From the NCBI GenBank assembly GCA_964035015.1, contig CAXIUP010000270.1, positions 336,001 through 400,000 on the forward strand: a stretch of DNA of 64,000 bases, written 5' to 3'. A model generated the notes under the pieces. The model was not told the origin of the DNA, did no database searches, and saw only the letters and a program-made list of their open reading frames with translations. This DNA is from Corallium rubrum. Taxonomy: Eukaryota; Cnidaria; Anthozoa; Scleralcyonacea; Coralliidae. The position numbers and the translations under genes are program-made. Shown piece by piece: positions 7,719-64,000 of this stretch. The stretch's first letter is position 1. The number at the start of each line of letters is the position of its first letter.

Positions 7719-9775
7719 TTTACTGGGCATAAAAGTGTGAAGAATGCATGTAAGGAGTGACATGCTTTGTTTGATACAACTTTAAAAACTGATCTAGAAA
7801 TGGCTTGGATTTCTCTTGAATGTGTTCTTTGCTTACTTGTGGGCCAGTTGAACTCAACATATTTGTAATTTCTAGAAACTGTCTCCACAACTCTGAAATC
7901 TGATTGGACTTTGGGTGACTAGGCAGTAGCTCACAAATGTCAACATTCCTAAATAATTTCAGTTTCTCTGGGCCAGTGAGATCCGCCATTTTAATTTTTT
8001 TGAATGCTTGCACACAAACCAATGAAAGGAAATTTTTAAAGTATCATTATGATATGATTCCCATCTAGCCATGTGTGTAGGCCTATATGCAGAACTTTCA
8101 AATCCATCAGTAAATCTCTTCTTATTGTCAATTGAATCTAGCCTGCGAAATTCTAGAATGAGCAGGTTAATCAAGTTGTCAGAAATTCTGAGGAAAAGAT
8201 GTAGAGTGTCTATCACAACATGGTCCAGAGGTATTGATGGGAATAATGGTGAACGTTTTACATTGTAGTGAACGTTTTACATTGTAGTGAACGTTTTACA
8301 TTGTAGTGTTCCCCCCGGGACCTTTCATTTGATTTTCGTTGGATTTCGTCTATTGTGCGAGCACCTTTTGAAGTATCGGAAAGAGACCATTCTTTTGTTC
8401 CATCATATTTGTGGTACAATGGACACTTGCACCAAATACAGGGGTGAGATACAGTTGCTGCAACAAGTCCACAAACACATGCAAGAAAGTTCCAGTCCCC
8501 TCCTAAAAACCACTCAATAGCAAAACATTCTGTTCCAACTTCTAAATGCTTAAGTGATTCCACATCTCTCCGGATATCTGACAGAGATTCTGCAAGTTTC
8601 TCATAATTTTCAGGCTCTTTAATTATGGCAATCAAATGGTTCCCATCTGCTGACATTGCTTTTGAGCCTTCATCCAGAATAGTAAATGTCACATTAATAA
8701 CATGTAACCTTTTTCCAACATTGGTCCCATCGCCTGACAATTTTACACAAATTTTATGATTCTGTTTAAATGCTTCATTGGCAGGAGTGTTTTTAATTAA
8801 GTGTTGTAACCTTACTTGCAGCCTTTCTTTTATGTCTTGCTGAACACCATTTGTACCTCCAGGGGTATCAGTAAGATTCCATTTGGCATTTAAAGCCTTA
8901 ATCCTCTGCTGGACTCTCCATGATCTAGGCAGCTCCTTGCTTGTCATTGAAAGTTCATTGTATGCTTCATTTGAAACATTAAACCTTTCTTTGGTATATA
9001 GTAACAAATTTATCTCATCAATCTCCTTGTCAGTGAGAGTCTCAGTGTGAGATGAGGTGTGTATCTCTTCTTCACCCAACAGGTTTACTGTCTCGTACTG
9101 CTGAGTATTCTCATTAAACACTTCAACTTTTGTTGCGATAAAATTGTGCAACCCCAGAAATGATAGGGAGGTTTCACAGTCGGTGACCATTTGCTTTCGA
9201 ATTCTACATTGGTGTCGCCTGCTGTACTCTGAAAATATTTTTGATTGGTTGAGCCTCTTGATATTTTCCTTCTTTGTTGCCTTATTAATTTCTGTGTTAG
9301 CTGTTTAAATTTCTTTTTAAATTTTCCATTCATTTCCTGATTTTTGGCCACAGCTTCTTTTAATTTGTCTTGAATTTTAGCTTTCTTGCACCTCACCACA
9401 TCAAGGTCATCTTGAAGCTTTCTTTTCTCAGCCTTCAACTTACTGATGTCCTGCTTTAGCCTCTCAGGTTCCAGCTCACTGTAATAAATTTTAAATGACC
9501 ATGTTGAATATCTGCCTGTTGTCCATCTCGCCAATAACCTCCTAACCGGACCTCCACCATTAGCTGTTGCCTTCACCATTGCTTCTTTTAATCTCCATAT
9601 TTTTGTTTTGAATGCTTGAAGTATTCTATTGCTTATAATAACCCCTGGGACACCACTCATCTCGCATACTTGCTTCACTAAATCCTTCATATTGTTGGCC
9701 AAGCTGTCTCCCTCAGTACCCTCATCATCTTGATTTGATTTGTGTATTGATTTGGAAAGTTCGTAGAGAAGCTTG
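7719..9775 (-). pseudogene. RAG1-like DDE transposase, main exon, decayed
   Basis: The exon starts after the acceptor TTATATAG at 9776-9777, in phase with exon 1 at 16776-16951. Order of parts: a linker (KLLYELSKSIHKS); a coiled coil (LKAEKRKLQDDLDVV, about 9450-9350); a basic YSRRHQCRIRKQ stretch; then the catalytic core. The core has SGDGTNVGKR, placed like the first catalytic Asp of RAG1; GGDWNFLACVCGL, whose Asp is followed after 18 residues by Cys-x2-Cys (CIWC), the spacing at the second Asp and zinc site of RAG1; IDTLHLFLRISDN; VDICELLPS beside RAG1-type VDAVCELIPS; and VTPYMH where RAG1 has its zinc-binding His. The frame is then lost before the final Glu. Damage: 1-nt shifts near 9243 and 7985, and two extra 19-bp repeat units at 8260-8307. 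These are my own comparisons, not a database result. Confidence 0.65.
8260..8307. repeat. 19-bp tandem repeat in the RAG1-like core
   Basis: GTGAACGTTTTACATTGTA occurs about 2.5 to 3 times in a row. Removing two units (38 bp) restores the minus-strand frame from EHYNVKRS to PLFPSIPLDHVVIDTLH, so the expansion is a late frameshifting event. Confidence 0.8.
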
Positions 9776-9883
9776 CTATATAAAGGAAAATACATAACAC
9801 CACAGTTTTAGGAAGCATTATTCGAAATTGTTTACTTGAAATTATATAACCGGTACAGACGAATTTAACTTACTGTAGCTTAA

Positions 9884-10080
9884 AGTGTCTATGCGACCAA
9901 ATGAGACTTTGCATTTTTAGAATCTTTGGTAACTATAGATACTAAAACCCGAAAACAGAATTAAATTCGAGCTTTTCTTCGCGGAGTTATTGCTACTTAA
10001 ATAGTTGATTTTTTGTGGCGAATAAATTGAAAACCGCGAAAAGAGCTTGGAACCGAATCAGTGCCTTGTGACGTCACAAT
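9884..10080 (+). repeat. Kolobok left terminal inverted repeat
   Basis: About 200 bp. The outer 26 bases match the right end perfectly. Inner parts share GAAAACAGA, CCGCGAAA and a TGACGTCACAATAGTAA block with the right end at lower identity. Confidence 0.85.
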
Positions 10081-10519
10081 AGTAACCGCTCAAGAGGAAA
10101 ACAACAACATTAGCGAGTATTAGCATATAGTACGCAAAGGTTTAGTGCAATATAAGTCACTGTTGGTTTCGAAACGGAAGGTCAAAACGCAAAGGATGTT
10201 TTTCTAAAATATTTTCGTGGGAAAACAAACAAAATCTTCCTCATTTTCGTCACTAGGTGAATTTTCCCGTCGAAAGACGGACGTTTTGGTCTCTAAATGC
10301 GCAAACGCGGTTGCCTAACCCAGCCAAACAATGTCCATTAGGAAAAACGTAGGCATCTAGATCAAATTCAAATTCCGGTACGATTCCACACATATACACC
10401 CTACTCAACCAGTTAACTTCAGTTTTCTACTGTGAACGCTTCGGTAAAAGTAGATTCATTTGGATTCTGTTTGACATTCGATTTCTATCCTGGTGAACCT
10501 ACAGTCACGCAATCTGAAA

Positions 10520-13500
10520 ATGCCAAATAGATGTGTTGTTGGCGGCTGTTCTAATGTCCCTAGCGCAAAACAGGGAATTGCATTGCATTTCATACCATTC
10601 ACTGGAGACGAGAGGCCAGAAGCGAAAAAACGACGAAAGCAGTGGGTCGACTTTGTACGACTGAAGCGAGCAAAATGGGATCCGACTCCCAGCTCAAGCA
10701 TTTGTTCGGCCCACTTTCCGAAAGAAGACTTTACAGAAAGGTTTCTTGGTATTTCTGGTAAAATCCCTCGGTTGATTGCGGATGAAATTGGCGTCGTCGC
10801 AATTCCGAAATATCATATATCTGCTGAGGAAAAACCTCTGTCTGCTAGAGCCAAGAGAAAGGTAAGCGCGTACCTTTGAAATGTTTGTACATTTTGCTTT
10901 TGTAAGAAGAGACGAAATTCATTCGTCAACCTCTTGGTGTAACTGCAACTTAACGTATATCCAATTTTTAATAGATTGTGAAAGAAACTATGTCCAAGTT
11001 CATGATGACATCGACTGAGGATGTCGGTGAAAGTCAAGCTCGAAGTCACGCTAGCGCCATAGATCATGCATCGCAGCCGTTGAGCAAAGTAGAAGATTCT
11101 GAAGAGGAATTCGAAGGAAATGGCACAACAGAGGATGAGAGGCCTTTACTAGTTTTGCCAAACAAAGTACGTTTATATATGGGTTTAACCATTAAAACGC
11201 GCAAGTTGCGCCACAGCTAGATATTCAATTAGAGGTAATCGAGTTCAGTTGTCATAACACTGTCATGATCACTGTGTCTGTGATATTTTTTCTTTGCTCT
11301 AGCCAAAAGATGTTTCCACCCAAACAGACGGTTGTGTTGGATGCGCCTATTTAGTGAGAGAAAGGAGAAATCTATGGAATAAATATATTAAGCTAAAAGC
11401 TAAATTCAATGCAACGATCAAAGTGAAACGAACTAAAGGTAGTTAGACATGAAATATATACACACTGCAAGGGAAAACCCGTCTAATATTTCAATATTTA
11501 AACCCGTCTACGTTTTCTAATCTTGGCCGATATAAATAACCAACTTTTTTCCTTGGACCATTTTCAAACGGCTGGTGAATGAGCTTACATCATAAACTTT
11601 ATTCATGCACAGCCAAAACTTATTCAATTCCCACATTTCTAGGTGTTCAGTGTGATATCATTACGGAAATTGGCAGAGAACAGAAAACTGAAAGCGAAAC
11701 TCTACACGATGTAAATATGGAGCACAACACGGTTTCCGATGAGGAGGATTTCACTGAATACGAAGTAGACGACGAACCTACAGACGAGGATTTTGAGTAC
11801 GAAACCGAGACGGAATCTGAGTTGGAAATTGATTTGGATGAGAATAGGTAACGCAATTAAGGAAAAGATTGAGAATATTAACCCTTCCCCGTCTGGGAGG
11901 CTTTTCCCCAGCGAGTAGAATTGTCTTGTACACTAGCCATGCAGGCTAAAATCCAGAAAAGTTTGATGGAGAGTTAGGGAGATAGTATATAGTTAAGCTT
12001 TAAGAATAGCAATGCCAATGTATATATCCTTGGCAGCTTTGCTTTTGTATGGAACATTACCTGTTTTTCTTAAACAAATTTTAGGGTTTCTGCGAAGGAT
12101 ACAAATCTAAGACAGGAACCGAAATTCATCGTTTTCCTGTCTCAGTTGCTTTTGCTGTTTAAGTTCTGTCACTATTGCAAAACAGATAACCCCCTTGTGG
12201 AAGCTCGAAAAGCTGGAACTGCAGTGGTCATCGCAACAAATTGTCCGAATCCCAAATGTGGTCGGCAACAGGATGTTTGGAGAAGTCAACCTTTGATGCC
12301 TGGGTCGAGGGTAAATGCTGGTGATTTTCTTCTGTGTTTCTCTATTTTAGTTTCAGGAGGATCGCCCAGCAAAGTTATCCACTTGTTTCAGCAAATGGGA
12401 CTTTCCGGAATATCTCTCACTACCTATTTCGAACACCAACGCGTATGTATAACCCATCTGAACTGTACAATATTATAAGCCATTGGCACTGATTTATTTG
12501 GGGACAAACCTTTTTATTTTTGAGAGGGAGGTTGGGCAATTACAAAAAAAAAATAAATTGCCCAACCCCAGTAAACCCCCCCCCCCCCCCCTAAAAATTA
12601 GGATGGTCTATCCCTTAGAAAGCGCTTAGAAAACTGAAAATAAACCAAGCCCAAAGGCACTGTGAAAAATCATTTGAACAAATATTTGTCCAGCCAAAGT
12701 TTTACCACCATTCTTGGCTATATAAAATGTTAGTTAATTCCATGCTCTTTTCTCTTAAAGACAAAGCTGTTTCCTACAATCCTTCTTCATTGGAAAGATT
12801 ATCAGAGCAAAATTCTAGATCGTCTTAAAAATTTAGAATCATCTTTGGTGATATCTGGTGATGGAAGACATGATAGCATGGGCCACAGTGCTAAATATGG
12901 TGCTTACACAATACTTTGCTGTACTTCGCCTCAAATAATCGATTTTAGCTTGGTCCAGGTAATTAACACTGTCACCAATAAATTCAAATTTAAATAGAAA
13001 TTATGTCAGGGTCACAATGCATGTGTATAGTTTTGTTAGCCCCATGTCTTGAATGTGTACATAGTAAATAGATAGCTCATATATGAGGTCTCGAAATATC
13101 TACTAATCAATGTGCAATTTATTAACCATGTACAATATGTTTCTATTTTAGAGAAATGAAGTAGGGAGCAGTCCTGCTATGGAATATGCAGCTTTTCAGA
13201 GATGTATGGACTTTCTCCTTGGTCAAGGTTTAGAGATATCCACCCTTGTGTCAGACAGACATCAGAGCATTGCAAAACACATGAGGGAGAAACTGCCCAA
13301 CATAATCCATTATTTTGATGTATGGCATTTGAAAAAGAGTAAGTCGTAAATCATCCTCGAGTGAACAGTTCATGTGAACAGTCTAAAGGTTGCTGCCAAT
13401 TAATTGTCCCTATTTGCATCACCATGAACAATATTCTTAGCCTGTGAGGGGGCTCGTTTATGATGTAGGGCAGCAACCTTTCAATTGTTTACACAAGCTG

Positions 13501-15297
13501 TTCTAAATAAGGGAGAAACTGGCTCCTTGCAGTGAGTGAGCCACATTTTTGTGCTCAAATGTCTTGTTCAATATAGTAAAACACTTACTGAATTCATCTT
13601 TGTCCAATACATTTAGTTTCAACTTGCATGCAAGGCTTGACCTTTGGTGTCATCCAAATGTGAATGATCAACTTAAGCATTTATCTTATTTGGCTTGGAT
13701 AAATCCAATAAGTAACAATTAATAATATATATAAACATATATATGTATATATTTATTCCTAGAATTGCATAAGATCTTGACTAAATTGGTGAAGGAAGCT
13801 GACTGTACAGAATTGTCTGAGTGGGTACAACCCTGTGAAAATCACCTCTATTGGAGTGCCACATCAACTCATTCTGGAAATGGTAGGATTATATTGGCAA
13901 AGTTCAAATCTTTTCTGAGCCATATTGTTGACAAGCACGATGAATTGGATGACCCTTTATACAACAAATGTGCCCATGGTGATCTGACACCAAGAAAGTG
14001 GATTCTACCTAGTATGTTCAACTACCTTCATACCATTTACATTGTACAGTACTTGAAGGGGCAGATGTTGGGCAAATAACCTGAAGTGCTATTAAAGCAC
14101 AACCCTTGCCCTTTAATGCGTAAGGCAAGGTTATGGTTAACCCATGAAGAATGAGATCACCTAGTGGCATCAGCCAGAATAAAAAGCTAATCTGTTGCCT
14201 TGCCACAATGGGTTAATCATTCCACAATAACATACTGATGTGCCTTCAGTACTTGTTTACAAAACTGTTAACTCTGGTATTACTTTCTACATATTTTAGA
14301 CTCTCCAGCCTATACAAAACTATGTAGTGCCATGCTTAACAAGTCATTGATGAAGGGTATACAGCAAGCGTCACCTTTGGAGCAGACAAGTTGTTTGGAA
14401 GGATTTCACTCTGTTGTCAATCAGTTTTCCCCTAAAATGAATGCTTCTTCTTTTTCTGGTATTTTCTGCAGGTATATTTCTGTGTATATATGTATATACT
14501 GTAAGTTATTTTCTCTGGTTATAAAATCAGTTAGCTACATTTATTTATTTAACAACATTTTTTGACAGATGTAACATATTTTAATGCTTTGTTTTCCAAT
14601 TTTGGTGCCTATGTTATCTAGACATATCCTGGCAGCTTTACATTTTAATTACAATTTATTTCGAGTTGGCAAGAAGAATAAGGATGGTTCACAACAGGTT
14701 AAGATTACTTATCCAAAATTCAAAGATGGCAATGCTACTGTAAGGGAAGTTAAAGTGAACCAAAACTTCGGTATGAGATAATGGAAACTCTGGATTTCTA
14801 CAACTTTTTCCATTTTAATTAATTGTGTTGTTGATATTAACCACCCATTCCCCTATTTTTGTCATATTTAGGATATGTTGAAGAAATATACCAAACATAT
14901 ATAACAGCATGTTCAAACAACACTCTCGAAGATGCCTGTATGAAGTTGAAGCAGATGACACCAGCTCCAATGAATACAATGTTCGAGAAGGAGACAAGAG
15001 AAGTAGCCATCAAGAGACAGGAGACAAGAAAAAACCTTGTTGTGGAAAATGTCCCACCAACAACACCATGTATGCTCCCCTGCTATTTAAATTTATTTTT
15101 GTTAAAATGGTAATTAATGTAATTTTGTGTTATATTTTTCAGTGTCAGAAGTACTTGCTCAGGAACAGGCAGCAAAAGCCGCATCAAGAACATCAGTTAC
15201 AGCAAGAGCACCCCCACGATGCTCCGTCTGTAAAAATTTGATGAAAGGACACAAAAATGTGCAAGACTGTCCAAGAAATCAAAAAGCCCTACAGTGA
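10520..15297 (+). CDS. Kolobok transposase (THAP plus DDE), 12 exons, 846 aa
   Basis: Cut-and-paste transposase acting in the nucleus. Exons by GT-AG sites and phase: 10520-10861, 10975-11166, 11303-11438, 11643-11847, 12085-12442, 12761-12958, 13152-13338, 13763-14011, 14300-14471, 14622-14770, 14872-15069, 15143-15297. They total 2541 nt with no internal stop. Residues 1-90 are a THAP zinc finger (MPNRCVVGGCSN ... SSICSAHF). I chose the ATG at 10520 because THAP domains begin MPxxC; an upstream in-frame ATG at 10493 exists. Residues 140-290 are an acidic linker. A Cys-rich block (CKTDNP, CPNPKCG) and WRSQPLMPG precede the DDE core: Asp about 445 (SGDGRHDSMGHSAKYG), Asp about 512 (TLVSDRHQSIAKHMR, then FDVWHLKK) and Glu about 656 (TSCLEGFHSVVNQF). 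The C-terminus has a Cys-x2-Cys-x6-His-x5-Cys knuckle. AATAAA lies at 15404. It looks functional. Confidence 0.9.
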
Positions 15298-15476
15298 CTT
15301 ATGTACTGACTTATCTGTTTATACACCATTTGTAACTTAATAGTAATAATACACAAATTTACTGCACAGCAATTTACCACATTAATTTACAGTTTACCAC
15401 AAAAATAAAAACATAATTCAACAACAACATATTCCAACACATGATTCAAGATGTTTTTAATACTGATACATGTACA

Positions 15477-16421
15477 CTATGAACTGTCCTCCTCTACAAA
15501 TCCCACAAAGTCTTCCTCCACATTAGGCAAGAATCGCCTCCTTATCTGCTCGTAAGCACAGGCTGGCAAGGGATATCTTTTATTTCCCAGATGCCCAAAA
15601 ACAAGCCATACAAAACTTCTGTAAGCTGTGCTGCGAAAGAACCTACAAATTAACATATTTAAAAGTAACTATGTTTATAAAAGGGTAGAATTTAAAGTTA
15701 TTCACGTAAAATAGGGATTTTTCACATTTGCGACCATGTATTAAACCTGAAATAAGTTTCACCTACCTATCTTCTGTGCTCGTTTGGCGGTATTCTTGCT
15801 TCTGTCTCGTACGCAATTTTGTTGCTGTTAAACGAAGCGACCACTTGTCCAGACATACAGTGTCGAAACCAGGATGGTTTATTATACACGATGGTGGGTT
15901 CTCAACTTCTTGTAGAACAAGCTCACTATTCAAACATGTCCTACACTCCTCGATTTCCATACAACACTGACACTCTTTAGCGTTGCGAAGAAGCTGAACG
16001 GCACAGTTACCACATTTACACCTGAAATTTCACAGCAAACATGAAAGTACACAATGGAATAAAACACAAAGCAAGACAAACAAACGTACTTCACGACACG
16101 CACAACAACAACATCGTCATCGTCAAGTACTCACCACTTACGCACTTCTTCTGTCCCATCGAGTCTCTTTTGCAGTTCCTTCAGACGCTCGTCGTAGCTT
16201 TTCTTTTTTTCGCTGTATTCAGCCAGCCATTCTTCGTCGGCAACTGGTTCATTAGCATATGGACCAACCTCTGGTTCACGATCGTCCATTGCCGTAGCTT
16301 CCCCCACAGTTCCCTCTACTTCAGTTGGGTCGTTGATTGTATACGGCCCGGGAATATAGTTCCAATCAGAGTCGTCAGTTTGGTAACTTTCATTCTCCGT
16401 GTCTGAACTTGATGAGGACAT
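15477..16421 (-). CDS. P2X7-type ballast-domain protein of the Kolobok, 235 aa
   Basis: Three exons: 16421-16135, 16021-15767 and 15642-15477, all with GT-AG sites, 708 nt in frame. The ATG at 16421-16419 is the first after the right inverted repeat. Residues 1-70 are Ser/Asp/Glu-rich and 70-95 are a short charged helix (EYSEKKKSYDERLKELQ). From residue 96 the protein matches the cytoplasmic zinc-binding ballast domain of P2X7 receptors: WCKCGNC, a CQCCME pair, SCIINHPGFDTVCLDKW, then FFRSTAYRSFVWLVFGHLG, LPACAYEQIRRRF and a final GFVEED. No membrane segments or channel part are present. It is transcribed toward the transposase, stop to stop, so the two are probably co-mobilised. Its role in transposition is unknown; a DNA- or protein-binding helper is a guess. 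Confidence 0.88.
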
Positions 16422-16504
16422 TTTGAGCGTCACAAACTTACAATATTAGCTCGAAACACAAGATAAATCACACTACTTTAATAGGAAGCTGAGATGTTGA
16501 TTTA

Positions 16505-16703
16505 CTATTGTGACGTATTAGTTACCAGTTCTCGACTTTCGCGGTTTGAAAAATTTGTTGCCGTTAAAATTTGAATTTTCCGATTTTCAACCCGCTATAA
16601 CTTAGTGAAAACAAGTTCGAATTTGAATCTGTTTTCGATTTTTAATATCAACGCGTCAAGAAGATCCTAAAAACGTGAAGTCTCATTTGGTCGCATAGAC
16701 ACT
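16505..16703 (-). repeat. Kolobok right terminal inverted repeat
   Basis: Inverted counterpart of 9884-10080. The element ends at GACACT directly before TTAA (16704-16707). Confidence 0.85.
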
Positions 16704-16775
16704 TTAAGCTTACTGTACAGTATTAATCAGCATCAGGATCGGTATACAGTAGTGTAGGAATCACAGTAAACTTAC

Positions 16776-39013: not shown

Positions 39014-42000
39014 AGTGCCTATACGACCAATTGGGACTTTGCATTTTTCGAATCTTCGTGATCTGTAGATACGAAAATCTGAAAACAGAATTACATTTGG
39101 ACTTTTCTTCTCAAAGTTATCGGCGTTTAAAAGTCCAAATTTTATTGACTAAAGCGTAAGGAGCTTGGAACCGAGTTAATGCCTGTGACGTATTTATAGG
39201 AACTCATTCAAAGTAAGAGGAAAACCATAACACAGCAAAAATATTAACATATAGTGCTTCAAAGTTTATTGCGACAAGTCGTGAATTTCGAAAATGCCAA
39301 ATAGATGTGTTGTTGGTTGTTGTTCTAATGGTTCAAACCCAAAGCAGGGAACTTCGTTGCACTTTATACCATTTGCTGAGGACGAAGAAAAGACGAAAGC
39401 AGTGGGTCGAATTTGTACGACTAAAGCGAGCCAAATGGGACCCGACTCCTAATTCAAGTATTTGCTCGGTACACTTCGCTAAAGAAGACTTTACAGAAAG
39501 GTTTTCGGGGGTTTCTAGTCCTAGACGTCGTTGGTTGGTTACCGACGAAATTGACATCGTCCCTATACCGAGACATCACAAATGTGTCGATGAGAAACCT
39601 CTATCAGCTAGAGATAAAAGGAAGGTAGGTGTACAATAATATATATACAACATCTATAATATACAAATCTTGGTATTTTGTGGGATATGCGTAATTAAAA
39701 AAGTCCAATGTTCAACATCTTTTTGTTACTGTAAATTATTCGATTAGATTATAAAAGAAAATACGAGAACTTTGGTTGAAAAGGATAGCGAAGCCGTGAA
39801 TGTTAGCGCTGAGTCACATTCGTTGGAGTTGAAACTTAGAAAACGAAACGACAGAGGAAATGCAATCCTTACTAGTTTCTTCAAGCCAAGCCAAGTATGT
39901 GTATAGTTGGGTTTTTTATTACAAAGTCACATTTAGCTATACCCAACAGCTAAATATCCCTTGTTTATATTTATAATTTTGAGTTGATATTTGAAACCAT
40001 GGTCCTTTTACAATCAATGATGAAACCATTCTCATATTCCTTGCTCAATAGTGTAAACAAAAAAGCGTTCTCACCCAAACAGATGGTTGTGTTAGTTGTG
40101 CTGCGTTATTGAAAGAAAGGGGAGAGATGTGGAACAAGTACATTGATCTAAAAGTCAAATTCGAAGCAACAATCAAAGTGAAGCGAAATAAAGGTCAGTG
40201 TATACGATTAGTGTCAATAGCGGTTGTGTACGCGCTCATTGCTGGGAAAACCCCTCTATTTTCACTCAGGTTCGGCGTTCGGCAAGTCATGCAACTTCGT
40301 ACCAATCGTTGACGCTTTTCATAGTTTAATAGTCACAATCAATAGTCATCCTATTCTTTACATTTATAGGTATTCAGTGTGACATAATTTCAACTGGAGA
40401 AGGGCAGGAAGCGGAGACTGATGATAACGCAATACCCTTAACTCATTCCTGTCCGGGGGCTTCCCCAGAGGTGAATAAAATCGTCTGGCGTTAGCCAGAC
40501 TAAAATACTAAACACCAATTCGGACAAGAAAGAGTTAAAGAGATAGTTTATAACTCATTCCTGTCCGGGGGCTTCCCCAGAGGTGAATAAAATCGTCTGG
40601 CGTTAGCCAGACTAAAATACTAAACACCAATTCGGACAAGAAAGAGTTAACACAAAACGATGACGATGTAAACATGGACCATGACGCAGATTCCGAAGAG
40701 GATGTTAGCGAAGACGACGCATCTGTTAACCAGGATTTCGAGTGCGAAACAGAGACAGAATCTGAGGCGGAAACATGTTTAGACAACAATAGGTAACACA
40801 AAATAAACAAAAATATAGATATTGAGATTTGTGGTTCACTGCGAGGTTCACTGCATGGCAAGTCGTTAATCAGATTAACGCGTTAATAATACCCGATTTT
40901 CTAAACAAATTTTAGGGTTTGCGTAAAGAATACAAATCTGCGACAGGAGAAAAAATTCGTCGTTTTCTTGTCACAATTACTTTTGCTGTTCAAGTTTTTC
41001 CACTACTGTAAAACGGATAACCCTCTCGTTGAAGCTCAAAAAGCTGGAACTGCAGTTATTATAACAACAACTTGCTCAAACCCAAAGTGTGGTAGACAAC
41101 AGGATGTCTGGAGAAGTCAGCCTTTCATGCCTAGTTCACGGATAAATGCCGGCGATTTTCTTCTAAGCTTCGCCATTTTAGTTTCTGGAGGATCAGCCAG
41201 CAAAATTATCCAATTGTTTCAGCACATGGGACTTTCCAGCATATCTCTGACAACATTTTTCCAACACCAACGTGTATGTGCAGCTGTTTATTTATATATG
41301 TATCAGGTCTACAAAGTTTAACTATTCTAGAGTATAATCACAAATGATCTTAGTTATTCACTCTTCCTGTCAGTAGTATGTTGCAAAGTTCACTACTGAA
41401 TGATATTTGATGAACTACGCAGGTATACTTCCAATTTTCAAAACCCATGCAGTTAACAAATTATGGAACCTTGTAGGCGTTGTTGCAATTGCAAAATGCT
41501 ACTTTACAATATTCGTGTGAAGTTTGCTGACTATTGACAGGAAGCAGTCGATACACGTGTAATAATGCGCTTTTTTGTATTTTTTTAAAGACAAAACTAT
41601 TTCCTGCAATCTTCCTTCACTGGAATCAATATCAGAAAAATATTCTGGACCAGCTCAAAAATTCAGGGTCATCTTTGGTGATATCTGGTGATGGAAGACA
41701 CAGTGCTAAATATGGTGCTTATATACAGTATTTTGTTGTAGTGAACCTCAAATCATCCATTTTAGCTTAGTTCAGGTAAATAATATTTGTCTGCATTAAC
41801 TATTTTGTATTGAAACAGTGTATTTGCTAATACATCAGTATTACATTGATATATGAACCATAAATTGTACATAACTGCAAAATTTCCAACTACTGATTGT
41901 ACATGTCATTCCTACATGTAGATACATGTAAGAAAAACGTTGTGTTAAAGTTACTTAATGAGACCCTGCCCTCTTACCCTATCTCAGAATGATTACAGCT

Positions 42001-43120
42001 TTATTGCAAATGGACAACCTGTTTCCATTTTAGAGAAATGAAGTTGGAAGCAGTAGTGCAATTGAATATGCTGCTTTTCAGAGATGCATGGACTTCCTTT
42101 TGCAAGAGCAAGGTTTGGATATCTCTACCTTTGTGTCAGACAGGCATTCTAGCATTGCAAAAGCATATGAGAGAAAAGCTACCTAACATAACCCATTATT
42201 TCGATATATGACATTTGAAAACGAGTAAGTATCATAATCATGATGTTTATTACTTACATTCATACTGCAATTATAAGCCTTCTATATACAATCCCCATGT
42301 ATTGCTACAAACCACTAAAATAAACAATCATATCCTTGTTCGTAGAGTTGCACAAGATATTGTCCGCATTAGCAAAGGAAGGAAATTGTTAAGAATTGGC
42401 TGAGTGGATACGCCCCTGTGAGAATCACCTTTATTGGAGTGTACATATTACTAAGTATTCAATATTTGTTTATAATATATGAACTCTGGGATTATTTTTT
42501 ACATATGGTATATGTTTAGACTCTCCAGCATATGAAAAGCTGTTTACAGCCATACAGAACAAGTCACTGATGAAGGGTTTCCAGCAAGCTTCACCATTTG
42601 ACCAGACAAGCTGTTTAGAAGGGTTCCACTCTGTTGTTAACCAATTTTCTCCCAACTAGTGATTGCTTATTCTTTTTCTGGTATGCTCTGCAGGTATGTA
42701 TGTCTATGGAAGTTATCTTGTGTGAAACACATTTCCATTTACTAACATATGTTTTGTTGACAGATGCAAATCATCATTTTGATAAAATTATCAATATTTA
42801 TATATTTGTATTTCTAAATTTCTACACACACATTTTGGCAGTCATACATTTTAATCGAAATTTGTTTCGTGCTGGCATGATGAACAAAAATGATGATTCA
42901 CAACAAATTAAGATTGTCTACCCCAAATTCAAAAATGGAGAGGCAACCTTTAGGGAGGTTAAAGTGAATCAAAATTTTGGTAAAGAGCTGACAATGCAAA
43001 ATTCAGTCATTGTGATGTCTGAATTTTTCTAATCTTTAATATATACGTGTCTCTTTTCCTTCTATTTATTTATTTAACTAACATATGTTGATGAGATATA
43101 CCAGACATACATAACAGCGT
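39014..43120 (+). pseudogene. Second Kolobok copy, dead and truncated
   Basis: Starts at TTAA (39010-39013) with AGTGCCTATACGACC and follows the copy at 9884 collinearly through exon 11. The THAP exon (ATG 39294) has a small deletion near 39383 that shifts the frame. Exon 4 (from 40372) holds two mini-MITE copies. Exon 6 (41592-41774) lost five residues (DSMGH) after the first catalytic Asp, and a later shift follows. Most of exon 8 is gone. Exon 9 still encodes TSCLEGFHSVVNQF. Similarity stops at about 43120, so the last exon, the ballast gene and the right inverted repeat are missing. It is an older relative of the intact element. Confidence 0.88.
40442..40646. mobile_element. Mini-MITE, two tandem copies in Kolobok exon 4
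   Basis: A 93-94-bp unit with inverted ends CTCATTCCTGTCCG / CGGACAAGAAAGAG, copy 1 at 40442-40534 and copy 2 at about 40554-40646, identical as far as I can read. TTAA borders lie at 40438-40441, 40535-40538 and 40647-40650. Related single copies are at 37351-37429 and, decayed, at about 11879-11980. Confidence 0.8.
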
Positions 43121-43918
43121 CCAAGAGATGTGAATAATACGGACAGTGACTATTCTTACGAAGCAATATTTTTTAATCTGAACAACAGTAAATGCACATG
43201 TGTCGTTAAATTGAAATCTGATTCTATGAGTTTGTTATATGAAATGCCTGTGGAATGGTCTCGTCGAATATATGTACGATCTGATTGATAATCAAACAGA
43301 ATTCGATTTAATACTTTTTAAAGACGAGTTTTGTTGTCGTGACAATATTTATGTCAATGGGAAATACGCATCGTAAGCATGCAATTTATAACTGTCCCTA
43401 GTTATGTTGAACAGAACAAAGAGAGAAACTGAACAGGTTGGTAGACAGATTGAGGAAACTAATTCCGGCTTCGTATAGTACGGTTAGTCGGCCCGATGTT
43501 ATTGAAAGCGCGGCGGACTACATCGAGGTAAGTTGATAAACAGATGACTTACGCGCGTACTCCCCTCGTTGAACAAAGGGACGGCAAAGGGATTAGCCAC
43601 AACGCGCGTATTTACTACGGTTTTCTGTTTTAGTATCTGCTCGGCCAGGCACCGACGTTTCGGAGGAAACGAGCGAGAAAACCAGCTAAATTACCCTCTT
43701 CTTCAACACCGCAGCCTCGAAACGATACCACCGGTCCGGCGGTAGAAGAGATATTAGAGATATTCCACACTCATCATGTGTTATGTTGCCTGTTAGAAAG
43801 GTGGGTTGGTTATAGTCGGGAAGAGGCTAGTTATCTTCTACAGATGATACCTGATGAACGTGTATTTTACGGAATCAAGCACGGAAAGAAGGGGTTTGAT
43901 ATTAGTAAAAATGTTTAA
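43121..43918 (+). pseudogene. bHLH-domain gene remnant
   Basis: The segment at 43402-43527 encodes a basic helix-loop-helix: VEQNKER, then one base further in frame LNRLVDRLRKLIPASYSTVS and RPDVIESAADYIE, ending in a GTAAGT donor. The exon at 43634-43918 continues in phase (YLLGQAPTFRRKRARKPAKL, then GPAVEEILEIFHTHH and an acidic/aromatic tail) to a TAA. Upstream, 43121-43372 encodes a possible N-terminal part (YEAIFFNLNNSKC, then LIDNQTEFDLILFKDEF in another frame). At least two 1-nt shifts occur and the upstream gap (43373-43401) is only 29 bp, very short for an intron. The left side abuts the truncated Kolobok. bHLH proteins are dimeric transcription factors; the subfamily is not recognised. 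Confidence 0.6.
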
Positions 43919-44090
43919 ATAAATACTTGCCAGAAAGTTGATAGTATGTTATTGAGTACGTTGTCGATGTTTAATCCGATTGGCGTTGCGGTTACGTCTA
44001 CGCTGTTTAAATAGTGAAACTTAGGTTACCCTTTGCTTTTGGGTAGGTTGGAAAACCCGGAATCCGGAATCCGGAATGGAATCGGGAATC

Positions 44091-44790
44091 TGTAGGAATC
44101 GTCATAGTGAATATAGCAACGGTTTTCCTAAAATTAGTAATATAATAATTAACTATTAACTGTTAAAATAATAATAACTGACCAATATATCATATAATGA
44201 TTAACTATTAATTAATTAGTAATATAATAATTAACTATTAATTATTAACTATTAAAATAACAATAATAACTATCCAATATGTCAACATGAATTGTATGAC
44301 ATTTTATTTTGGCTTGCAAGAAGTTTGTTTTGTACGAATTTTTTTATTTCGATTTTTGATTTTTGGCATTGACGGTCTCTTTGCTGCAAGAAATCAACGC
44401 ATCACTGTATATCTCGCTATGCATGTTTTGCAAACCGCAGAAAATAAAAAAAGGGTGTTAGTATTATCTATGACTATGAGGCAAGCCGACAGCTATCCTG
44501 TTTACCGGGCTAGCTTGCAGTATATTGTTTCTGCCTTTCTGGTGTGCGTTTAATATTATGAGTGAATTTCATCATGCCTAATAAGTACCGAGATGATTTG
44601 ACATCAACAAAAATATCGAAAGACTCCTCCAATAGTCGAGGATAATACGCGAAGCGCTTTTGAATATTAAAGTCTTGAAAAATTCAACCTGGCAACTAGT
44701 CTGAATCGATCTATTAAAGACTGATAAAGAAACCTAAATATTGACTATAACTTAACAAAACACGAAATATTGTTAAGTGGGATATTCTAT
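44091..44790. repeat. Dispersed repeat, inverted copy at 56120-56872
   Basis: Both copies share, in order, GAATCGTCATAGT, a TTTTCCTAAAATTAG block, TAATTAACTATTAA runs, a TTGACATATTGGATAG / GTCAACATGAATTG region, GCATAGCGAGATATACAGTG and AGTGGGATATTC. An 88-codon frame inside (44287-44553) is not called. Confidence 0.7.
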
Positions 44791-45449
44791 TTACTGATAA
44801 ACCGGCCGAAAGATACTTTTTTTAGCATAATAATCCAGATATAATATTTTTTTTATTAATAACCATTATCATTTCAAAAATAGTCAGCCATATTTCGCTT
44901 TTGGAAAATTGGGTAAATTCTGAGCTTCCATGTCCTCACACTAGTCACTGTGGCTTGGAATTATTCATGCCAGAACACGGCGCTGATATGCGAGCTGATT
45001 ATGAACAATAGCTGTATTTGGCTTGCATTTTTACAGGCCAGTTTTAATACAATGACCTGTAGAAATAGTAAAATTCGTCACAACACCTTGATATGATCCT
45101 TTGGCTTGAATTTCTTTAAGCCATAAATCTATTCAGATATTTAAACATGTTTCTCTATAGCAAACCAACAAAAAGCAACAACCTGCCTTAGTTTGCAACA
45201 CTTCCTTGGTGTGATTTTTTCAAGCCAACTCAATATTAATATAAATTTATGTCTGGTAATAAAAGATACTGGTTATCTAATTAGTTTACAAAAACCGGGA
45301 AATAACGCCTTAATGGTTTTAATATTTCAAGCCATAATTCTATTCAAAGAATCAAAAGTAATTTTGTTTAACAAAACCAACAAAAATTATTCTGTATATA
45401 TATTTCTAGACTGATGCAACAATATACTGTACACATTTCTCCAGCAAAA

Positions 45450-45785
45450 CAGCACATTTTAGTTTAATATATATATATATATATATAGTACCTCATACAC
45501 ATATACAAAAAATGACTTGGACTTATTCATTACAAGTCAACTATATAAAGAAATAACAATCGAAATATGGTATAGTAGGTTAGTACTGCCGAAACAAAGA
45601 ACGTGAGTGGTCTAACGTTTCGAGCGAAGGCCCTTCGTCAGAGAGAAACGTGGGGCCTTCGCTCGAAACGTTAGACCACTCACGTTCTCTGTTTCGGCAG
45701 TACTAACCTACTATACCATATTTCGATTGTTGTTTCAACACTGCCTACGCAGCACACTACTTTTATTACACTATTTATATAAAAA
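45450..45785. repeat. Penelope-like inverted pair
   Basis: Arms near 45562-45641 and 45651-45729 are inverted copies (ATGGTATAGTAGGTTAGTAC, CGTTTCGAGCGAAGGCC). GTGTGCTGCGTAGGCAGTGTT-like sequence at the right edge recurs at 50353-50375 and, diverged, at 49553-49575. It has the same general design as the element at 1770-2212. Confidence 0.6.
45618..45641 (-). ncRNA. Hammerhead-like core in the Penelope-like pair
   Basis: On the minus strand: CTGACGA, stem II GGGC / GCTC with loop CTTC, then GAAA and CGTTAG. CUGANGA allows C at this position. Stems I and III are uncertain. Confidence 0.4.
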
Positions 45786-47635
45786 AATATTGCCTGTCAA
45801 AAACAACTATGCCTAATACCTGGAAGTTATTGAAGTCATAGCTTAGTTCTACAGTATACTGTACAAAACAAACACTTAACCACACACCTAAACACTTTAA
45901 TATAAAGGATTGAAAAGCATTGGTTTGTATTTTTTAACATGCTTCAAGCCATAATTCTTGCATTGATCTGACATACTGTACTAAATTTCATTGAACACTT
46001 AAACATGAAAATAAAGTGATAAAAGGTAATCTGAACTATATACAGTAAATTAACTTGTTTCTGCTCATGCAGACCGTCTTCCATGGTTACACTCTTTTAG
46101 CTAATTTGACACAATCTTACTTATTCAGGAAAGCCTACAGCATAATTGTATCAGCAAAAATAGTAAGTCGAAATTGGGCACAATAGCAATGCCATTGCTT
46201 TTGTCTCCAAGTGGCATCACAAGTACAATATACATGTAGTTTAATTGTTATAATTATAGTTGTTTTCATGCATTTTCACTTTAAAGTTAAATTGCATGTA
46301 GAGTGAATGGACTCATTCCTGCGCAGACCACATGTCCTTGACAATTACAGTAATACACTAAAGAATAGATTTATTAAGATACTTTAATTCATTCTTGCCT
46401 ACTAGACAACTTCTTCCCAAAATTGCAAAATGCAAATAAAATCTCTATGCATTAACTAGAGCAAAATTAAAAAGGAACTCAAGTTAATTACTGAAACCTG
46501 CCTAGATGATATTACCCAATGTAAAAGGTTAACTGGACAGGAATAAGTTAAGATGACAGCAAACTTACAGCTGTTGCACTGTAGCTTACTATTGACTATT
46601 ATAAATTATAAAATAACATGTATACTACGTGAGCCCTGATTGGTCAATTGCTGTGTTTGGATCAGAGTATCCAAACATGGAAAATTCCTGCCAAAACGAT
46701 TGTTTGAAAATGTTGGACACTATATCATATTCACTTGTGATTATTTTATAAAAGAAATACCAAATTTTTTTACCGTGTTTGGAGACTCTTATGCGAAGAC
46801 TTGGGAAATTGCTTAAACTTTCGAAAAGCTAAAAACACACAGCTCGTGTTTTGTTATGCTTTTCTCCAGTCTCGCAATTTCCCACGTGTTTGGATCAGAG
46901 TATCCAAACACAGAAAACCATTTGGTCTTTCTTTAACAGGTTGCATGTGTCTTACGCACACTGTGATCAGTAAGTTACCATGTTAATATCAGGCTATGCA
47001 GACATGGTTGTGATGTCATGGCACATTTCTTAGTCTTATTTCATAAAAGAAATTAAAAATGGATGCCCTGTGTTTATATAAACACTCGAATGAGTTTGGG
47101 AGAATTCAAAACTTATGTAAACCCTCAGCTATACCTTGGGTTCACATAAATTTTTGAATTCTTCCAACTCACTCTTTTGTTTGTATCAGGCTATATAAAC
47201 GTGGCTATCCATTTTCTATTTATTTAACAAATATAAAATTGCTTGCATGCAAGCTTGTCTCTGTAATGTGGTCCAAACATGCACAGATGATGTTACTTCC
47301 ACCGGAAAAAATGCTTAGTGGAAACAAGAGGTGCAGCCAAGTGTTTTCACGCATTTTTTCCAGTTGAAATTGCATCATTTGTGTCGGAATCACAGTGAAG
47401 AGTCACAAAAGCTATTTTCTATTTGTTTTATAAAATAACCATTTTACAGCATACAACCCAAGGAGAAGCCACCGAAGTGATCAAGACTCAAATGACAAAT
47501 GATGGTGTGATCAAATAATTGTGCCAAGTGATTATCTAAGACATATTTAACCAAAAAAAGCATGCATTGTACAATAAAAGATGAAAATTAAGTCAAACAG
47601 GTCTCTGTACTCTGATTGAATTTGGCCTTGTCCAA
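45786..47635. other. No gene seen; short palindromes
   Basis: TTTGGATCAGAGTATCCAAA occurs twice (near 46666 and 46891). A hairpin at 47084-47185 pairs GAGTTTGGGAGAATTCAAAA with its inverse. Otherwise non-coding. Confidence 0.45.
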
Positions 47636-59522: not shown

Positions 59523-61310
59523 GTGACGAGTGGTAGCAATTCCTCGTTGGAAGACGAGATACAACCTGTTCCGTATACGCCCGCGAACAAACTTGGTGGC
59601 AGCGGTGACGGAGAAATATCGATTGGGAACGACGAAAAGAAGTCAAAACCGAAGGCAACGGGAAGGTTTTTGGGCTATGCTGGCTATGGCGCAACTTTGG
59701 CGAAAATGCGAGCAACTTCCCTTGAATTTCCAATTAAGTAGACAGAAGCTTGCTCCTGCTCTTTTCCCTTCACCTCCTAAGAAGAGTGTAGACATGACAT
59801 CTGTCCCATCCTCTGACGAATTGGTCACAACTGCCTCTGAAGATGAAATAACGCAGTATTTCAACGATGATCCCAGATTCCCCATGCTTAGTCCAACCAA
59901 TGCAAGCTATACCGCTGAGAAAGTGCTTGAAATAATTTCGGAGGATTTTCCAGAAGAAAGTAAGTGCCGCAACAGCCAATAAGAGTACAAAAATTTGCAC
60001 GTTTGCAATTGATACGTTTGCAATCGATACCCGGTTTGTTCCCCTAGAGGACTTACCAGCAGCTGGAAATGGGTCATATGTGAACAATGGCCGCTCAATA
60101 CACACATACCGTCGCAAAGCCAATGGGAGATGGAAGAAAGTGAGCGCGCGGGGTACTGACATTGCAAACGGTCATCGGAAGTGCATTTTACGCGAGAGTA
60201 TAGAGCACATAAGCAAAGTTCCGAATTTCCGACAAACAATTTTTTACGCCAAAACCAAGAATGGAGAAGTTTTGAACAACTTGGCGATATTACAATATCG
60301 TTTCACGGGACTTGAACACAGAATAGAGTTAATCTCCCACGGTAACGCAAAGTCTGGAAAATCTTACGCACGCACGAAGCCTTCTGTTAAGCAAATGTTA
60401 AGTGAGAACTTTAAAAGTTTACCAGCAAGTGAGGCAGTTGCGAAAACGCGCAAAGATCTTGGTGCACTATTCAACACTTTATCTCATTCAGAAGCACCTA
60501 GAGGGAGAGCTCAAGCTTACGACATGAAAAGAGAGGTTCGCAAGCTTCATGCTCACAATCCAAAAGAAAGCACATCGACGAAATGAGGAACATTAAACTG
60601 GTTTGCAAAGACCGATGGGAAGGGTTTTGTACGAATGCAAGAACTTTCGTCTGAGCCAATGATTTTGCTCGCAACGGATAAGCAGTTGGCAGACGTCTCC
60701 AGATTCTGTACAAGCCATATCAACTTCAGTTACCTCTCAGTCGATCCAACATTTAATTTTGGCGAATTTAGCGTCACCCCAACTTCTTATAGAAACGTCT
60801 TCCCGAAGAATAAGAAGACAAGCAAGTCGCCTGTGTTTGTTGGCCCTATTTTTATTCACCACACAAAAACGAAAGAAACTTACGCACAATTTATCTCCAA
60901 ACTTTCTGGATTATCTCCTCAGATTGAAGACTTAAATTGTTTTCGGCATGGACGGTGGAAAAGCTCTTTCAGATGCCCTTTCAGATGCCCTGAGTGAAGC
61001 TTTCCCACTTGCAATTCATCTTCGGTGTTTCATCCATTTCAAACGAAACACAGAGTCGATGTTGCACTCCTTAAAAGTAAAGACCATGGACAATATTACG
61101 GAGAAATTTTTGGCAAACAAACAAGAGGGAAGTGTTGACGAGAAAGGTTTGCTGGACGCAAACCGCGAGGAAGAATTTGACACCATCCTTGCTTCGCTAA
61201 AGGACCCGTGGTGCAAGACGGAAAATGATGAAGCTGGAAGCAAGTTTCATGAATGGATGCTTGAAAGATCCGATATGATGAAAGTCTCCATGATTGCAAT
61301 GATTGCATGA
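59523..61310 (+). pseudogene. MULE-like transposase relic
   Basis: Exon 1 (59523-59960) reads GRFLGYAGYGATLAKMRATS, then after a 1-nt shift PALFPSPPKKSVDMTS and EKVLEIISEDFPEE to a GTAAGT donor. A CCCCTAG acceptor at 60046-60047 continues in phase. The second exon gives NGRSIHTYRRKANGRWKKVS, KMLSENF-type sequence, a single TGA at 60584, then GKGFVRMQELSSEPMILLAT and YLSVDPTFNFGEFSVTPTSY (first catalytic-type Asp), GPIFIHHTKTKETYAQF, and after another shift DGGKALSDAL (second Asp) and AIHLRCFIHFKRN. This order matches MULE-type transposases in animals as I know them. The 3' part is cut by a LINE insertion near 61315. Three lesions make it inactive. Confidence 0.65.
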
Positions 61311-61316
61311 TTGAAT

Positions 61317-61867
61317 GACCATCTCAGTGATATAGGTCCTAAGTTGTCTGCTACTCTAGAGGAGAGTGATAAAAGCTTTGAAGATTACATCACGCCAAGC
61401 GATTTTTCGTTTGATTTAACTTTAACCTCTCCGGTTATTTTACATGATTTACATAACCCATTGTTTGAAGTTCTTTGGACGAAATTACAACCTAAAAGAC
61501 TTCCTCGTGGGATAACTAGTATTATCATAGGAATAATATACCACCCACCAGGTTCAGACAACCTTTTAATGATCGACTATCTCATTAATTCCTTAACCAG
61601 TATTGAAGCATTGTATGCTAATTGCGGAATTATCTTAATGGGCGATCTAAACAGGCTGAATACTTCCCGTATTAATCGCCAGTTTAAGTTGAAACAACTA
61701 ATAAAATTTGCTACTAGAGGAGAGAGAACTTTTGACGTTATTTTAACCAATACTAGCCAGTTTTATGACAGTCCACAAAAATTTTCACCCTTCGGTCTTT
61801 CCGACCATTTTACAATAAAAGTCCTTCCTAAGGCGAGAACTTTTACCACCAACAGTTTTAAAGTTAT
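61317..61867 (+). pseudogene. CR1/L2-like LINE, endonuclease part
   Basis: The open frame encodes the C-terminal half of an apurinic-type endonuclease: WTKLQPKRLPRGITSIIIGI, YHPPGSDN, GIILMGDLNRLN, TRGERTFDVILTN and the SDHF motif. It is 5'-truncated inside the MULE relic. The frame stays open to an LTR insertion at 61868 and resumes at 63609. It is probably fairly young. Confidence 0.8.
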
Positions 61868-62123
61868 TGTTGCGTGTTGAGATTGTTGTTCCAATCTACG
61901 TAGTTAACTAATCGGATTAGGTGGCAGAACTTTCGTTATTTCCTGCAGTACTTAGGTGTTGATATATAATGTATTAATGAAATGTGTAAATGACGTAGTT
62001 CCTACTTAATTGGGTGAGGTTCTCACGCAATACTTTGATATATAAGATTGTGCTTTGTTTGATTAAATCGTTCTCCACTCTGGCTTTGACTCTGCACGAT
62101 GTGTTGTACTTCGGCACGTTACA
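61868..62123 (+). repeat. 5' LTR
   Basis: 256 bp, starts TGTTGCGTGTTGAG and ends GGCACGTTACA. Confidence 0.9.
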
Positions 62124-63352
62124 AATTGGTGCTCAGCGGTGGGATTCATCCATGCACATGTGTGTAAGTGGTGGAAGACACTGAAGACAAGATTGAACGG
62201 ACCGAAAAGCATCAAGCAACCCAGTGGCAAGGCATTTGGGGTCGCAAGTTGGAAGGAAAGAAGGAAAAGAATAAATGGACTGGTCAGAGTCGAAGCCAGA
62301 GTTGCCGTTGGTGATGGAGAACCAGATCGTCGATGTTGGTCGATTGGCGATCTTATCAAGACCAAACTAGGACCGGACCAGAATCAGAATGGTGCCGTGG
62401 GGAAAGAAGGAGAGAGAAGAAAAAGGACGGAGTGGAAAGAAAAAAAAGACCACCGATAACGAACCAAAACTGAATTGAACTGTTAGTGCGTGAGTTGCGT
62501 GTTTCCTTTTTTGTTTGCTGTGTATTTTGACTTTAGAGTTTGAAAACGAATTGTGGAACGAATCACCAGAGGTAAATCGCCTATCCAGTGTCACCTGTCA
62601 AGGCTATCGTCCTACCAGCTGTGAAGTCCTGGCGTTTTCTGCGTTGGTTCGTCTTAACTTTCGTGTGAACTGTTGCCTGCGTTATATGTACTGTTGCCTG
62701 TGAACTGAACTAGTCAATCCGTCAAGACTATTTTAAAAGAACATTGTCTCGCTGGTCGCTATTACTTTTAAGTAGATTTACCGTGACCAGTTATATTATT
62801 TTAATTTTGTTAAGCGCGCGCGAGGAAGCCGATAATTTGAGTTAATTCTTGCTATAAGATAGAGCGGTACACTAAGAAAATAGAAAAAAAAATATTCAAA
62901 GAAACAAAGAAGAAAAACGCAGTTATGTTGGCAGAAACAGCGTAAGCCCGGTGGTAACGGCAGACCAACGAGATAGTAGCTGTATGTTAGTTGAGCACAA
63001 GTGAATAAGTGTCAGTGATGTCACGTTGTGAGATTGCGATGACAGAAATAGTCCTTTAGAAGATAGGGACGAAGAGTAGTGACAAGAATAACATTAATTA
63101 GTATAATCAATGGCTGAAGGGTAGTCAGTTGTACTGTAAGTCGTAACGTAAGGGCAATAGTCCAAATTTATGGCGTTCTGGTTACGTAGTACGTAAATTC
63201 AAATCATGATTCAATATAAGACAGTGTAGGATTACCAAAATGTTATAAGATCTAAGGCGCGATTTATTTTTTATTTTTTATGTGTATACAAAGCTTGTCG
63301 TTTCTGTTACTTTAATTCAGTTTTTGGGTCGAAAACAAAAGGGGGAGGATAG

Positions 63353-63608
63353 TTTTGCGTGTTGAGATTGTTGTTCCAATCTACGTAGTTAACTAATCGG
63401 ATTAGGTGGCAGAACTTTCGTTGTTTCCTGCAGTACTTAGGTGTTGATATATAATGTATTAATGAAATGTGTAAATGACGTAGTTCCTACTTAATTGGGT
63501 GAGGTTCTCACGCAATACTTTGATATATAAGATTGTGCTTTGTTTGATTAAATCGTTCTCCACTCTGGCTTTGACTCTGCACGATGTGTTGTACTTCGGC
63601 ACGTTACA
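63353..63608 (+). repeat. 3' LTR
   Basis: 256 bp, starts TTTTGCGTGTTGAG (first TG mutated to TT) and ends GGCACGTTACA. Confidence 0.9.
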
Positions 63609-64000
63609 TTATCAAGACACAAGATCTGAGACCAAGTAACAAAAAAGCCCTCGGTAGAGTCCTTTCAACGGTGGATTGGTCATGCTTAGACAAAATCTAT
63701 TCTTGTGAGAATAAACTAACAGTCTTCAATAATATTTTGTCTAAAACTCTAGACACAATTATGCCAATTAAAGATAAGAAAATCCATGTAAATGATGCCC
63801 CCTGGATGACGGAAAAACTTAAATCCGCAATAAAAAATCGACAACGTGCGCTGAACACTGGAAATAAAACTGCCTTTAAGTACTATCGGAATCAGGTAAA
63901 CTCTGAACGAAAGAAATGCAGACAGTTTTACTTCCATGGTAAGATCAATAATCTAAAACATACTAAGCCCAAAGACTGGTGGAGTGCTGTTAAAAAGATT
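63609..64000 (+). pseudogene. LINE continuation, linker before RT, runs off window
   Basis: Open frame in phase with 61317-61867 once the LTR element and one TTAT are removed (FKVI joins KTQDLRPSNKK). It reads APWMTEKLKSAIKNRQRALN, AFKYYRNQVNSERKKCR and PKDWWSAVKKI. This is the basic linker between endonuclease and reverse transcriptase in CR1/L2-type ORF2 proteins. The RT itself lies beyond the window. Confidence 0.8.

Follow-up and report, generated by a model that had tools for sequence, protein, structure and literature searches.

The cnidarian Corallium rubrum carries, in the 64,000-nucleotide stretch analyzed here (contig CAXIUP010000270.1, positions 336,001 to 400,000 of the forward strand; hereafter, the window), a complete Kolobok transposon at window positions 9884-16703. 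It holds two genes, one for a THAP-DDE transposase and one for KolX, a protein akin to the cytoplasmic ballast domain of the P2X7 receptor. The element lies between the two copies of a TTAA target-site duplication (9880-9883 and 16704-16707) and is bounded by matching inverted ends, namely terminal inverted repeats of 110 bp at 9884-9993 (plus strand) and 16594-16703 (minus strand) that are 77% matched with each other. The outer arm pair (9877-9926/16661-16710) is 50 nt long and 92% complementary, with 43 nt of each arm inside the element, and it is joined by an inner inverted pair of 56 nt (79%). The termini read 5'-AG...CT-3', in agreement with the 5'-RR...YY-3' rule given for Kolobok in PMC9587614. 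In 16 loci of the same genome, 21 element ends are complete to the final nucleotide, and TTAA, the target site of Kolobok, adjoins 20 of them, a count that leaves out truncated ends (left of L014 and L017, right of L018) and in which L019 and L020 have their left flank in common; the sole other end, at L011, adjoins TCAA.

The transposase gene is predicted on the plus strand (10520-15297) with 12 exons (10520-10861, 10975-11166, 11303-11438, 11643-11847, 12085-12442, 12761-12958, 13152-13338, 13763-14011, 14300-14471, 14622-14770, 14872-15069 and 15143-15297). All introns of the model are GT-AG, and the frame is open for 846 codons plus stop. The THAP domain occupies residues 5-71 (10532-10732, plus strand; Pfam PF05485, E 2.5e-9). 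Catalytic motifs, assigned by eye, are D445 (12860), D512 (13254), DVWH from residue 533 (13317) and E656 (14398), so that the DDD/E arrangement of Kolobok with C/DxxH between the second D and E is present; CENH from residue 564 and KCAH from residue 608, which we note as motifs only, fall between C/DxxH and E, in the interval of the Kolobok zinc finger. The KolX gene (15477-16421, minus strand) is convergent with that of the transposase, the two lying tail to tail on opposite strands, and is predicted to have three exons (16421-16135, 16021-15767 and 15642-15477), again with GT-AG introns and an open frame of 235 codons plus stop. The initial annotation had described a complete and apparently intact Kolobok with a 12-exon transposase gene and a 3-exon ballast gene, and this description is borne out by the TTAA, the inverted ends, the splice sites and the closing frames of both genes.

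The predicted KolX protein consists of an acidic N-terminus, a helix and a putative zinc-cysteine ballast domain. Its proposed P2X7-type identity was put to a profile search and passes the cut-off of the Pfam family P2RX7_C (PF20478; E 8.8e-6, 26.2 bits against 23.5). A search of PDB chains with the 235-residue protein alone gave no match; with an 18-row cnidarian-type profile the top three matches are P2X7 chains (E 0.0022, 0.095 and 0.12), and the fourth is unrelated (0.17). The closest relative of the window KolX is protein P0001 of the octocoral Dendronephthya gigantea, 72% identical. In the predicted model of this relative, 104 of 236 residues form a confident core (predicted local distance difference test, pLDDT, at least 90), and its 14 best structural matches are all P2X7 chains (E 0.0011-0.021), the fifteenth having E 3.6. 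Identity of the window KolX to rat P2X7 is 27% over 113 columns. The zinc-type cysteines C97, C99, C102, C115, C116 and C209 are each present in 17 of the 18 rows (one gap each) and C122, C141 and C152 in all of them; the putative zinc-coordinating clusters of the P2X7 ballast are thus kept in KolX of the window type, which we refer to as class 1. Among the residues of the rat P2X7 site for guanosine diphosphate (GDP), counterparts of R546 and R578 are each kept in 16 of the 18 KolX rows, and those of H547, R574 and K583 are not kept. Taken together, the second gene is, as read from the sequence, that of a P2X7-type ballast protein. It resembles the ballast of P2X7 as resolved by cryo-electron microscopy (6u9v, 8tr5, 9e3q and others) in predicted fold, zinc-cysteine clusters and the R546/R578 positions, and differs from P2X7 in having no channel part and in not keeping R574 and K583.

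Pairing of a transposase with a ballast protein is already known, which settles the doubt expressed in the initial annotation on this point. In the main text of Kojima & Bao 2022 (PMC9587614), Koloboks of the Kol0 group, reported from cnidarians too, are said to encode a transposase and KolX; KolX is said to resemble human P2X7 476-595 and to adopt the ballast fold, and P2X7 is argued to have arisen by fusion with KolX, giving its tail a transposon origin. In the literature searched, Kolobok and P2X7 are joined in substance only in that paper, and KolX is named there alone. As described there for Kol0 (Kolobok-1_XT and kin), the window element has a transposase, a ballast-like KolX, TTAA, 5'-RR/YY-3' termini and C/DxxH; we place it provisionally in Kol0 by the published description (transposase plus KolX), the ballast similarity of its second gene being evident from PF20478 and from the fold of the close relative. 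With the window copy, this kind of element gains a further host and a copy that is to all appearances intact. What lies beyond the main text of PMC9587614 is the presence of two classes of KolX in a single genome, the selection acting on KolX, the identity of the class nearest to P2X7 and a transposase-less derivative, although the classes may appear in its supplements; possibly new are the division into classes and the derivative with KolX only.

A genome search revealed close copies of the element and a second family (about 68-86% DNA identity), for which we took ten loci with transposase matches (L013-L022) and a left-end fragment (L024). Other copies had been proposed as a check on the ballast gene, and it is found at the same place: KolX is in the same position in seven of the ten family-2 loci (L020 partial), and L017 has a deletion there. 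Both genes are open in L013, L014 and L015, and KolX contains a stop in L016, L018 and L019. Of the close copies, one (L009) retains an open KolX, with a transposase gene that has lost exons 2-3 and changed length in exon 7; KolX is broken in L010, L011, L012 and L023, and L026 is cut. That related elements have the same order of parts and TTAA-adjoining ends argues that the structure is not due to chance. Proteins of the two families are 75-77% identical, and the ratio of nonsynonymous to synonymous substitution rates (dN/dS, Nei-Gojobori) between the window copy and family 2 is about 0.10 for KolX and about 0.16 for the transposase, rough values given that dS is near or above 1 and the two intervals overlap. 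On these estimates KolX is under strong purifying selection and about as constrained as the transposase, which marks it as a functional component of the element and not a chance insertion. One might still suppose that the window copy picked up a host ballast gene by accident and carries it as a passenger, especially as free-standing ballast proteins are described across animals in the available part of Rump 2020 (PMC7016195). Already refuted by the shared position of the gene in two families, this explanation also conflicts with the low dN/dS, with ballast genes adjoining the transposases of a second Kolobok group (see below) and with the pairing described from other animals in the main text of PMC9587614, and we regard it as extremely improbable. 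One of the family-2-type loci, L021 (spanning 39500-47500), is a second, broken Kolobok within the window itself, at about 39294-43122; L022, likewise on contig C279, is broken at the same place.

Searching the genome with Pfam P2RX7_C gave at least 159 matches, in which one gene is possibly counted more than once. The 30 best (L029-L058) belong to a second KolX class, with ballast scores of up to 134 bits; its full-length relatives have a cysteine-rich N-terminus and a charged linker, and one class-2 open reading frame alone matches mouse P2X7 at E 3.6e-14. Public protein clusters matching the class-2 profile at E <=1e-5 amount to an unsorted 1043 of the 7997 candidates scored. In a first tree of 39 ballast domains, from which L029 (same protein as L060), L040 (cut end) and P0045 (without the WCxCxxC start) were left out, class 1 is separated from class 2 plus P2X7 at 100/100. 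The genome thus holds two deep classes of predicted KolX. The tree including P2X7 that the initial annotation had called for does not group the receptor with the window lineage: such a grouping is rejected by the approximately unbiased (AU) test (p 8.6e-5), which does not reject placing P2X7 immediately outside class 2 (p 0.335). A second tree of 54 rows included every fourth of 120 listed class-2 matches (30) and left out P0200 and P0028, which are without the WCxCxxC start; in it P2X7 and 24 of the 37 class-2 rows share a group at 99/100, with a bootstrap that had not settled, and P2X7 with the window lineage is again rejected (AU p 0.0033). Rat P2X7 shares 29-39% identity with class 2, against 24-30% with class 1. 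Judging from these comparisons, the P2X7 tail looks closer to class 2 than to class 1 of the window. The suggested route from a transposon to the P2X7 tail had been proposed already in PMC9587614, and the class represented in the window is not the nearest to P2X7.

Class 2 is, to judge from its genomic surroundings, mobile too, and resides in TTAA-flanked Koloboks. On contig C299 a class-2 element measures 7193 bp from TTAA to TTAA and has inverted ends, KolX and a DDE transposase on the opposite strand, with the pieces DGRNDSPGH, DVWH and CAHGEL; the DDE exon of the window transposase aligns with the class-2 DDE piece at E 2e-9. An opposite-strand transposase piece was found downstream of class-2 KolX, within a 1.5 kb flank, in 19 of the 30 loci, which are not independent, several being copies of one family. 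Within the same flank it was not found in the other 11 (L032, L034-L039 and L055-L058); in a longer stretch (L059) for the L055-L058 group the transposase lies farther on. A control of 92 kb, consisting of eight class-1 loci together with the remainder of the window, yielded no hit. These surroundings bear on whether the ballast arose instead as an animal host gene that was captured early by Koloboks, in which case a host gene, rather than a transposon, would have supplied the P2X7 tail. Such an origin would agree with the association, reported in the available part of PMC7016195, of ballast genes with two conserved markers in animals ranging from sponge to sea urchin, a linkage that suggests an ancient fixed locus, and our trees, being unrooted, leave room for it. 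Nonetheless, the at least 159 genome matches (including separate pieces of a single gene) and the 19 loci beside a transposase piece speak for a mobile family; the figure of fewer than 10 ballast genes per species reported in PMC7016195 would be odd for such a family, and repeat masking may explain it. A transposon origin is also argued in the main text of PMC9587614, and we consider the host origin improbable. The same part of PMC7016195 describes the ballast domain from a wide range of animals and mentions no transposon. Like the Nanor or stand-alone ballast (ZCD) proteins described there (PANTHER PTHR36981), KolX is short with the ballast at its C-terminus; unlike them, described as few per species, it occurs here in many copies whose readable surroundings are largely transposons. 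Two class-2 loci contain tandem structures: in L034 (C39:3053365-3056736) the end of the ballast exon is repeated with a 375-bp unit in at least four further copies, and in L059 (C1:4073000-4082999) there are two tandem copies of the ballast region, separated by about 3 kb, of which the first is shortened near a stretch of N.

Class 2 has also given rise to a 2.4-kb derivative. All seven copies aligned end to end (L043, L046-L050 and L052) have TTAA at both ends and 39-bp inverted ends; further copies with inserts (L042, L044 and L045) are outside that alignment. The derivative retains an open class-2 KolX and an about 60-codon C-terminal piece of the transposase, which is otherwise lost, so that the ballast gene is its only complete gene. 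Six of the copies are 99.7-100% identical (0-7 differences in about 2.4 kb) and the seventh 98%, a near-identity that points to recent movement. Here the chief competing explanation has to be considered, in which KolX acts on the host or on control of the element as a regulator or anti-silencing factor (a self-repressor or a shield against defence) and aids persistence. The derivative, without transposase and with KolX open in six near-identical copies, fits such a role, as do the separate reading of KolX, which has an end of the element to itself, and the low dN/dS, which would accompany any function that serves the element. Yet the copies are recent, and an open frame in them is no proof of selection; moreover, P2RX7_C is the only Pfam family above the cut-off in the KolX proteins scanned. 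We therefore view a regulatory role as unlikely, if less so than the host origin.

Overall, the window contains an autonomous-looking, two-gene cut-and-paste Kolobok that fits the Kol0 description and in which KolX is probably an accessory protein needed for transposition. The THAP domain of the transposase would bind subterminal repeats, and the DDE core of the same protein would cut and join at TTAA. KolX, encoded at the opposite end, would be required for spread, its zinc-stabilized ballast most likely helping to assemble or regulate the transposition complex. Guanine nucleotide is perhaps its ligand, because two of the GDP-holding arginines of rat P2X7 are matched in almost every KolX row examined. 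The P-element transposase, also of the THAP-DDE type, uses GTP, which makes a nucleotide-binding partner plausible. The P2X7 ballast would be a later, separate use of the transposon protein, with its nearest relatives, among those examined, in class 2. Several observations weigh against this account. The 2.4-kb elements move without a transposase of their own and so provide no evidence that KolX is needed. In L021 and L022, broken copies that keep most of the transposase, its sequence stops at about residue 733, and no KolX was detected in the next 4 kb. The dN/dS values are rough, as stated above. No Foldseek match to the class-1 model reaches E 0.001, and among the GDP-site residues R574 and K583 are lost, the R574 position being Tyr in 17 of 18 class-1 rows. 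Finally, P2X7 in both unrooted trees is represented by rat and mouse only (from four) and sits on a long branch (2.8), and the first tree is compatible with a place inside class 2 as well as beside it.

It is tempting to go further and speculate that the P2X7 tail descends from a class-2 KolX, that both classes are transposition accessory factors binding zinc and guanine nucleotide, and that the 2.4-kb elements are transposase-less riders bearing KolX. We offer this extended scenario only tentatively; if true, the receptor P2X7 would be reusing a transposition factor that senses nucleotides. To our knowledge, there is no consensus on what the ballast does in P2X7, an inflammation receptor. The same domain under selection in a transposon might provide a second and simpler setting for asking what the ballast binds and does, and the split of KolX into two classes narrows the choice of transposon lineage to be considered as source of the receptor tail.

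The 5' leader of the window transposase gene contains a 342-bp insertion (10161-10502) with AGTCAC on either side (10155-10160 and 10503-10508). It is present in three copies (the window, L009 and L010), whereas the C52 copy and family 2 lack it, and its two parts match a longer repeat elsewhere (L028 617-1666). Directly to the left of the element, on the minus strand, there are two long open frames of 348 and 240 residues (8261-9807). At the right end of the window (59527-64000), open frames resemble, by eye, a retrotransposon without long terminal repeats.
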